This document shows positions 11,978-57,500 of a stretch of 64,000 nt of DNA, piece by piece. The translations under genes and the position numbers were made by a program. The notes beneath the pieces are model-generated. The model searched no databases. It had not been told where the DNA came from and worked only from the letters and a program-made list of their open reading frames with translations. This DNA comes from Bimastos eiseni (taxonomy: Eukaryota; Annelida; Clitellata; Crassiclitellata; Lumbricidae), in assembly GCA_959347315.1 (NCBI GenBank), contig OY365814.1:1740033-1804032 (forward strand). Direction: 5' to 3'. Each line of letters opens with the position of its first letter. The first letter of the stretch is position 1.

Positions 11978-12301
11978 GGTGACCGTTCATTACGTCGCAG
12001 CTCCATTAGTCGTAGATCATTTCGTCGCAATTCATTTCGTCGCATATAGGTTTATTAGGGTCAGGTGAAGCATCGTGAGGGTCGGTTAGGGTCAGGTAAT
12101 GTATGGTGAGGGTCGTTTAGGGTCAGGTTACGAGTGAGTGGTGAGGGGCGGTTATGGTCAGTTTATGCGTGGTCAGTGTCGTTTTTGGTCAGGGCATGCT
12201 TCGTGAGGGTCGTTTAGGGTCAGGGTTAGGGTTAGTGTGGTATCTAAAAATTGATGAAATGATCTGCGACGAAATGATCTCCGACGAAATGAACGGGATT
12301 C
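11978..12301. mobile_element. fold-back element B (TTCGTCGCA ends)
   Basis: The left end GGTGACCGTTCATTACGTCG and right end (reverse complement GAATCCCGTTCATTTCGTCG) share CCGTTCATTWCGTCG. Both continue with repeats of ATCATTTCGTCGCAG. The element is flanked by a perfect 8-bp direct repeat, GAAAAGGA (11970-11977 and 12302-12309). The interior is a G-rich array of TTAGGGTCAGG phrases spaced about 40 bp apart. At 324 bp it has no coding capacity, so it is non-autonomous. Confidence 0.75.
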
Positions 12302-12531
12302 GAAAAGGATGAACAGAATAAAATATAGGCCTACATGGTTTAGTGTGCGGATTCGAAATATTTTAAATGGTAGGCCTACTTTGAAGATATTGCCAACATG
12401 TTATTATTCTCTATTATTCTCTTTGCAGACGACACAAAGCCGTTAAACCATCTGAGTTCATAAAAGTTTAATTAACATATAAGTAACCCCCATAACATAC
12501 TGGTTAAACTATTCATAATATCTTAATTTGC

Positions 12532-54500: not shown

Positions 54501-57500
54501 GTCTGAAGCAAGAGTTTGAGGCTAGCGAGCGTGAGTGGGAGAAGAGCAGAAGTGAGATGGAGAAAAGGGTCGTCATGCTGTTTGCCGAAAGGGAAGCAAC
54601 GCTGAGGGAAATAAATGTCATCCGCGACACCAAAAACGGACTTGAGTCGTCAATCGTTGTCTACCGTCGTCTGCTAGATTTAGAGGAAAACCGGTGAGCA
54701 AGATAACGTGTTTATTAACTGAAAAATTCGATCGTGTCATTCAGTAGAGCGATTAATTGAAAGATGGGGTCAGTGAGATACTACCTATAAATGTACAAGA
54801 GCAAACGAGTGAATGTGCGAACAAGCGACCGTGAGAATTAGCAACAGTTGTAATACTAATAGGACTACGTGTTAACAATACCTTATTGTTTGCCAGAGCC
54901 AGTGTCCGATTTGCCGGGAGGGAGCCAGGACCGTTGAATTGAGAGAGAGAGAGAGTGAGAGAGAGAGAGAGAGAGATACAGACAGATAGACAGACAGAGA
55001 GACTGAGAGAGATTGAGAGAGATTGAGAAGAGAGAGTGCAGTTACGACTTGGGAGTAAATGAAAGATTGAGTGAGTGAGCAAGCGAGTGAATTACGTATT
55101 ATGTGTAAATGACACGCTACATCTCATGTAATGTTAAGCACGATCAAGCGATGTTTTTCATCGCCGTTCTTGTGGATATGGACTCCGTTAACGACCTCGT
55201 GCATTATCCCTCTCAGTAAATGATTTCCAGATTGATATAGCCTACAAAACATACGGCACACCGTCAAAAGCGCCCCGGACAAATGCGTTCCGACAAATGC
55301 GCCCGTCAAATGCGCCCCGACAAATGCACCCCGATAATTGCGCGCCCCATATAATTCTATTTAATTCTATAATTAATAGTAATAATACATAATGCGCATA
55401 ATTCTATATTATGCTCAATTATTATTCTGATACTTTTATCAATACAGATTATGTTCACACAAACTTCTTCTCATCAATCCATCTTCCGTTTATTTACAGC
55501 AATACAACTTCCATTTTGGCCTAATAATGAATAATTTTCACAGGGGGTAATTGTCCTAGATTCATTAGGTCTATGTATCGTATTTAAATTATTACTAATA
55601 AATTAGAATAGTCAATTTAATTCGCTCTCTAACGATAATGGACATGAGAGTCTACAGGGCACGAGATAGTTATGGGGCGCTTTTGTCGGGGAGCATTTGT
55701 CCGGGGCGCTTTTGACGGGCCAGGAAAACATACAATGATATTATCTCTCCCCAAAATTACACAAAAATCTGTCACATTACAGAATTACATTGTGACTGGC
55801 TGTTGATTGTTTAGTATTGAACCAAAGCCTTCCATAGTCTTCGAGTATGGAGAAAATGGCGCAACATCCACAGGTATGAGAGCTTGCATTTAGCCTCTGA
55901 TATTGGTAAAAGGTTCTTGCTTCAAGGTNNNNNNNNNNNNNNNNNNNNNNNNNNNNNNNNNNNNNNNNNNNNNNNNNNNNNNNNNNNNNNNNNNNNNNNN
56001 NNNNNNNNNNNNNNNNNNNNNNNNNNNNNNNNNNNNNNNNNNNNNNNNNNNNNNNNNNNNNNNNNNNNNNNNNNNNNNNNNNNNNNNNNNNNNNNNNNNN
56101 NNNNNNNNNNNNNNNNNNNNNNNNNNNNATGAGTCTGTCCCCATCCACATCTCCACCCCATCATCGCTAGATCTGTCATTATCCCAACCCATTCTCACCA
56201 TGACTTTATCTGTCCCCATCTCCCATTCAAGGGAAACAAAAGAAGATAAAAATGCTCATGTGTGCTAAACCGTTGTGTACAAATTTTTAGTCCTTAAATA
56301 CAGAGTATAATTTAACTGAAGTTGATACTATGTCGAACATTTTCAAAGATTTTAATTATACAGCGCGATGACTCAACATTGTGTGCACACTTGGTTTAGC
56401 TTAATAATTGCAACAGTGGAAAAAGTCATAACCGTCATTGCGGTAGTTATAGCGCTTGTATAGGCCTATCCATCACCGAAGGTAATACTGCACATTATAT
56501 TATCATACCCATGGTATTACCGTCTCTTTTGCATAATTTTGATGGTTTTACTGCTGTTGTCGTGGTATTATCACTTTCGCCATTACGGTGCCACTCTCTT
56601 TTAGATCTGTCGATCTGTCCAAGCTTTCGTGTTGTCATGTCTAAATGGTAGGCTTCAGAATACCGTTGAATCAATTGGGCTGCTTCGTATTTGGGATTCA
56701 GATTATAGACGCTGCTTAATAAGATGAGTAGGCCTAAGAGGTTGTTTTCAGCCATACTTTTGCATTGCAAAATCGAATCCCAATGCATATACAAATTGAT
56801 TCTAAGAACAATTGGTCCTACATAGAGGGCAACGATATTTGTATTGCATCGTATTTTATTTAAGCATTTCTAGACACTTCTTGGATTGTGAACCGTTCAG
56901 ACGCGCTGCCAGTTCGCAAGTTCAATCGTATCTTAAAGACATAGCCTATGGTTATTTGTCTTTTTGTAATTAGTAGGCCCTAATTTAGGCCTACTCATCG
57001 TATCTCAACGACATTATTACTGAAAGTTTGTCTTGATCGTCATTGCATGTGTTGTCAAATGGTTGTGTGACGACTAAGGCCGTCTCTTAAGTTTTTATAA
57101 ATATTTCATTTATTACTTATTGTGGATAGTTTTATTAACGTTATTTTAAACGTATTCACTAGAAGCGCTTGATATTCTTATCCTGCTTAAAAGACACGTA
57201 CATGTAGACATGTTGACTACATAACAGTTGCGAGGCGAACTTCGACTAAAATTCGATAATTGTGATCTACGAATTGATAAATTTCGTACCGGAAGTTATG
57301 ATTAGTAAAGTGAAGCTATCGACGAGTAGTTTTGTATCAAATTTCGACTGATTTCGCTCGAATTCTGATTCGCCGTATACCTTCACTTACTCATAGCGGC
57401 GTCAATTCCCTCTGAAAAATGGAGTCAAACCCCGGTCCCAAGTGTCAGCAAGGAGTGAAACCCCCGGTCCCAAGTGTCAGCAAAGCAAGATATTCCCCTA

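Follow-up and report, generated by a model that had tools for sequence, protein, structure and literature searches.

Five short segments of the 64-kb window (the whole stretch of Bimastos eiseni DNA analysed here) are real insertions, i.e. transposable elements. They are discrete units with a non-coding interior, often of 35-bp units, and are bordered by target duplications of 8–9 bp; E1, E2, E4 and E5 carry asymmetric outer motifs, and the ends consist of inverted arrays of 14–15 bp repeats that vary in length and are weak in E3. We regard them as non-autonomous Foldback-type DNA transposons, most likely mobilized in trans by Mutator-superfamily (Phantom/Tm1-like) transposases, a reading to which we give a probability of about 0.7. 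Their body plan has already been described in nematodes, and the elements look like new families of a known type, not a new type of element.

The elements, their target duplications and related sequences are located in the window as follows.

11978–12301: E1, a fold-back element with 15-bp CATTTCGTCGCAGAT arrays and an interior made of a 31-bp GGTCAGG-type repeat; ends GGTGACCGTTCATT... on one side and GAATCCCGTTCATT... (inverted) on the other; target duplication GAAAAGGA at 11970–11977 (left) and 12302–12309 (right).
12532–13437: E2, a fold-back element with GACAAAAGAGCGCC arrays on both ends and inverted halves of 35-bp units inside; target duplication CTTAATTTGC at 12522–12531 (left) and CTTAGTTTGC at 13438–13447 (right), 9/10 identical.
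17057–17948: E3, with terminus GGTAAAATCGTATTTTAGCG (two mismatches per end in this copy), 35-bp units and a nested dispersed repeat inside; target duplication TAATAATG at 17049–17056 (left) and 17949–17956 (right).
17591–17746: the nested repeat within E3, a dispersed sequence carrying a simple tail of the ATTG type.
38190–38521, minus strand: a truncated copy of the E3 family with one exact terminus at 38502–38521.
43875–45290: E6, a 1.4-kb fold-back of 35-bp units only, in which no 15-bp ends were recognized.
47569–48121: E4, with CGTTTTGGCGCAGGA arrays at either end and 35-bp units inside; target duplication GTTTGATGC at 47560–47568 (left) and 48122–48130 (right). Comparison with its family suggests a left end one base earlier (47568), which would give an 8-bp duplication.
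55255–55724: E5, with GACAAATGCGCCCC arrays, outer motifs GGCACACC (left) and CCTGGCCC (right, inverted) and weak 35-bp units inside; target duplication AAAACATAC at 55246–55254 (left) and 55725–55733 (right).
58882–58901, minus strand: a lone exact E3 terminus.

All five elements and flanking repeats named in a preliminary description of this DNA are present in the sequence; E6, the truncated E3 copy, the lone E3 end, the repeat nested in E3 and four one-sided arrays had been missed. Its claim that every element ends in inverted motif arrays holds for E1, E2, E4 and E5, in which the arrays were detected by TRF, and less well for E3, whose two ends are alike and hardly form an array. Arms of 70 bp paired in inverted orientation above both Markov and random-window controls in 5/5 elements, with P-values of 0.001–0.002 for E1, E2 and E5, and weaker ones for E3 (0.017 and 0.007) and E4 (0.002 and 0.013). 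Flanking repeats of the quality seen at E1, E3, E4 and E5 occurred in 0.3–1% of random pairs at the same distance, and that of E2, with one mismatch allowed, in 0.75%; the exact match flanking E2, 5 bp long, is ordinary (37% of such pairs). The 20-mer E3 terminus occurred four times in the window with none expected, so that the E3 boundary is defined independently of its target duplication.

The 35-bp unit, which had been reported to be common to four of the five elements, proved to be so, albeit weakly in E5. A 19-bp core of the unit gave 58 matches in the window at ≤ 4 mismatches, compared with a mean of 0.4 and a maximum of 2 in 40 Markov sequences. The unit is present in E2, E3 and E4 and weak in E5 (three matches at ≤ 5 mismatches), and a search for the core across the window did not place it in E1; a few units also lie near 8518–8690. 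Some of the spread of the 35-bp arrays would have been with the elements, and some perhaps independent of them.

Other features of the window were also recorded. The dispersed repeat with the ATTG-type tail, found at 17591–17746, 8371–8511 and 62060–62116 and widespread in the genome, looks from its sequence like the truncated 3′ end of a LINE; the truncated copy of E3 at 38 kb lacks it. The one-sided arrays (30128–30255, 42660–42735, 59357–59426 and 60640–60706), with a period of ∼15 bp and CAAAA-type motifs, had no inverted partner array among the 40 clusters listed and may be what is left of additional families of this type. An exon of an intermediate-filament protein (41970–42521; Pfam Filament, with matches to vimentin and lamin) lies upstream of E6 and E4, which are possibly located in an intron. 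Two reverse-transcriptase ORFs (24957–26195 and 28570–29628; Pfam RVT_1) were judged non-LTR-like, and two related-looking ORFs of ∼300 amino acids on opposite strands (19915–20874 and 30374–31285) gave a marginal match to NHL repeats.

E2, E3, E4 and E5 were used as queries against the 660-Mb, 118-contig assembly. Forty places were scored for each; the first-look candidates, whose numbers are partly due to the 35-bp unit and the nested repeat and are not copy numbers, amounted to 2432 for E2 (136 matches), 4075 for E3 (55 matches), 3318 for E4 (77 matches; the scored places include E4 itself and are 81–100% identical) and 91 for E5 (132 matches). Among the E3 match rows, 29/55 hit an inner stretch of 150 bp, which is a dispersed repeat in its own right. 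Twenty-nine of the 40 scored E4 places extended nearly end to end (query ≤ 12 to ≥ 539), the other 11 being partial. Copies of all four queries elsewhere in the genome share the boundaries first drawn from the window, and further E1-type sequence was seen in two of the loci retrieved, L005 and L030.

These copies also define the ends of the families. In E5 the outer motifs GGTACACC and CGTGGCCC differ, and each runs into CGTCAAAAGCGCC-type arrays; E2 copies end in CGTGACCC and GGCACCCC. E4 copies have the outer motifs CGGTACGTG/CGGAGCAGG, with ends CGGTACGTGACG (leading C in 10/11) and CGGAGCAGGACG, and their arrays range from one to nine units on the left and from one to five on the right (14 copies). 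Outer motifs were thus asymmetric in E2, E4 and E5, and in the few copies of E1, while the two ends of E3 were alike.

The target duplications, previously given as 8–10 bp, were 8–9 bp in genome copies of E2, E3, E4 and E5 and exceeded shuffled flanks in each family; the signal was strong for E2, E4 and E5 and modest for E3. For E5, the mean best identity was 0.743, compared with 0.460 for shuffled partners and a maximum of 0.554 in 1000 nulls (the 25 distinct loci include that of the window; 18 of them yielded 19 end pairs, one locus being counted twice); 9/19 pairs reached 7/8 identity. Ten further E5 stretches comprised four with matching flanks (L031, 8/9; L035, 8/8; L039, 9/9; L040, 8/8), three with both ends and no clear flank match (L032, L034 and L036) and three that gave no pair. 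Exact 9-bp duplications were found at the E5 loci L001, L002, L013 and L039. For E2, the corresponding values were 0.824 and 0.495, equalled by 0/2000 nulls, with 7/9 copies at ≥ 7/8; nine of ten copies were scored, including L095, which was evidently mis-called but kept. In a first set of E4 copies, whose flanks were truncated, the values were just 0.568 versus 0.491 (0.6%; 15/20 copies scored), and a longer fetch of 14 copies, 13 of them at places of the first set and 11 with both ends, gave 0.779 versus 0.467 (0/2000), with 5/11 at ≥ 7/8. E3 gave 0.667 versus 0.483 (0.3%) and 1/6 at 7/8, in a sample of seven loci picked from 30 for matching end regions, of which six were scored. The many copies that lack a clear duplication (below 7/8: 10/19 for E5, 2/9 for E2, 6/11 for E4 and 5/6 for E3) count against our reading of the elements.

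An empty site was found in one case. At L005, an E1-type element harbours an E5 copy that is flanked on each side by GAGCATCC; once the E5 copy and one repeat are removed, what remains can be aligned with E1 of the window across the join. A recent transposition of E3 was considered and rejected: L042, a 96% identical copy 64 kb downstream, is a segmental duplicate, flanks and target duplication included (92.5% over 3.9 kb; window ∼15557–19423 and G000:C9 ∼1820140–1823906). The same segmental duplication, ∼64 kb apart, probably carries E2 too, and a 97% identical E2 copy at a similar offset presumably belongs to it; neither copy was counted as independent. Collectively, the tests on arms, flanks, 35-bp core, E3 terminus and genome copies rule out chance or artefact as the origin of the elements.

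The preliminary description held that the motif differs in every element and that the ends are unrelated. This is incorrect for E2 and E5, whose motifs are related and whose family ends gave shuffle P-values of 0.001–0.002 in 4/4 end comparisons. The two are sister families with homologous ends, an assignment that we base on the family-end comparisons and not on the motif pairs, in which the similarity of E2 and E5 (P = 0.01 and 0.004) is uncorrected for 36 pairs. A single 15-bp theme common to all motifs was rejected, since none of these 36 pairs (300 shuffles each) survived correction; the lowest P-values were 0.007 (E2 and the 42.7-kb array), 0.010 (E2 and E5) and 0.013 (the 30-kb and 59-kb arrays), followed by 0.020 for E1 and E4 (0.014 when refined). 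Likewise, E1, E3 and E4 ends had no relation surviving the 32 end comparisons, the values of 0.02–0.05 for E1/E2, E1/E4 and E3/E4 being uncorrected. A shared GGTAC start was noticed, but GGTACNNNNCG was not enriched in the window (one match versus 2.05 expected).

Could the elements have arisen by modular exchange, i.e. by one interior repeatedly gaining unrelated ends through recombination? The 35-bp unit does occur between unlike ends (E2, E3, E4 and E5, with the ends of E3 and E4 unrelated to those of E2/E5 in the 32 comparisons) and also stands alone, as in E6, and sea-urchin TU elements are said to be modular. Yet the ends of E2 and E5 are homologous, and the unit could spread alone as a satellite. 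Furthermore, ends and interior travelled together within each family in the copies read, E4 being the clearest case, which argues against recent swapping; hybrids would be under-sampled in this set, because entire elements served as queries in the search for copies. A stretch of the E2 interior can be matched at ∼72–83% in every one of the 24 other E5 loci, and much of this stretch is the 35-bp unit. Of the exchange of ends proposed earlier, the common unit within unlike ends thus stands and recent swapping was not seen. We consider such repeated exchange quite unlikely; a common unit with different ends may reflect old divergence, old exchange or the spread of the unit itself.

Short-tandem-repeat inverted ends place the elements in the Foldback structural class, as do their discreteness and mobility, seen in the target duplications and, for one E5 copy, in the empty site. 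Their assignment to a transposase superfamily is by analogy. Duplications of 8 and 9 bp fall within the 8–10 bp of Mutator/Phantom elements, with 8 bp also fitting other superfamilies; a survey of MULEs gives 8–10 bp for Phantom (PMC6446971). A close anatomical match is Tm1 of root-knot nematodes, placed in Phantom/Mutator by its transposase, which has asymmetric 7-bp outer motifs and TIRs mostly of 13–15 bp tandem repeats in variable number; 45/53 Tm1 elements have 8–10 bp target duplications, and the majority are non-autonomous and MITE-like (PMC3169594). Such motif-array ends in Tm1 refute the earlier statement that no named family has them. E1, E2, E4 and E5 show the same plan of asymmetric motif and array, and E3 fits less well. 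The motif sequences themselves are different, the likeness being one of described anatomy, and Tm1 has one motif family and a low copy number, whereas here the motif families are several, the interior contains a 35-bp unit and no transposase was seen. The Mutator-like reading first proposed fits in duplication length and anatomy, and membership of this superfamily is likely.

Neither a transposase nor an autonomous copy was found among the copies read, the longest E5-ended segment read encoding a reverse transcriptase. This segment (L031, 2043–4693; 2.65 kb between E5 ends, flanks CCCTAAGGC/CCCTGAGGC) contains a 469-amino-acid open frame with a reverse-transcriptase domain, which led us to reject it as an autonomous E5; judging from its sequence, the frame appears to be a capture or a nested insertion.

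Under a Mutator-type mechanism, a transposase supplied by an autonomous partner would recognize the outer motif, with the repeated motif offering several secondary binding sites, and would cut both ends and insert the element with a stagger of 8–9 bp. Arrays would grow, shrink and drift in sequence, giving rise to family-specific motifs, with E2 and E5 as a related pair. Alternatively, the same anatomy may be served by another transposase, of the P superfamily (Galileo-like) or of hAT, with the Foldback form arising independently across superfamilies; this we hold to be unlikely. hAT elements generate 8-bp target duplications, the length of many duplications here, but exact 9-bp duplications occur too. 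Foldback-like elements are indeed stated to belong to different superfamilies (PMC3169594; PMC3688188), yet an asymmetric outer motif followed by a 14–15 bp array closely matches Tm1 (PMC3169594).

The arrays may also serve another function, namely, on the model of VANDAL MULEs of Arabidopsis, as targets of an anti-silencing protein encoded by the element itself, and not mainly as transposase sites. VANC targets are family-specific tandem repeats of short motifs that contract, expand and diverge rapidly (PMC10398659), and array length here varies between copies and the motif is family-specific. In VANDALs, however, TIRs are degenerate and the motifs bound by the protein lie in noncoding regions (PMC10398659), whereas the arrays here are the inverted ends, and no encoded protein was seen in the elements; we rank this function lower and consider it very improbable.

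Binding of a transposase to repeated ends has a precedent in Galileo of Drosophila (P superfamily), in which a transposase domain binds the tandem repeats of the TIR as functional sites; the same source noted a similar repeat structure in Foldback and Phantom elements and described binding there as untested in 2013 (PMC3688188). Galileo resembles our elements in its long, internally repetitive TIRs, and differs in its P-type transposase and in TIRs of > 1 kb (PMC3688188). Tetris of Drosophila virilis is likewise a Foldback element with tandem repeats in its TIRs; its repeat unit is larger, however (∼220 bp, in TIRs of up to 1735 bp; PMC4079207).

The elements described here may also be compared with those of an echinoderm. 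TU elements of Strongylocentrotus purpuratus are reportedly fold-back elements with an outer domain of ∼15-bp repeats and 8-bp duplications, and their modular middles are said to be shared with dispersed repeats. On this description, they are probably elements of the same kind and the closest to ours. Their existence is cited in PMC4079207.

As objects, the elements are ordinary repeats, and their recognition aids the repeat annotation of this genome. The presence of several families with related and unrelated arrays in one genome provides a means to study how the ends of transposons change in concert with the specificity of the transposase, and the same families allow one to ask whether the motifs of foldback ends are binding sites. 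A doubtful extension is that one lineage has split into co-existing families through rapid turnover of the 15-bp motif and matching transposase specificity, with the 35-bp satellite shared and gained more than once. If this were true, the arrays would document how new specificities of the transposase came into being.
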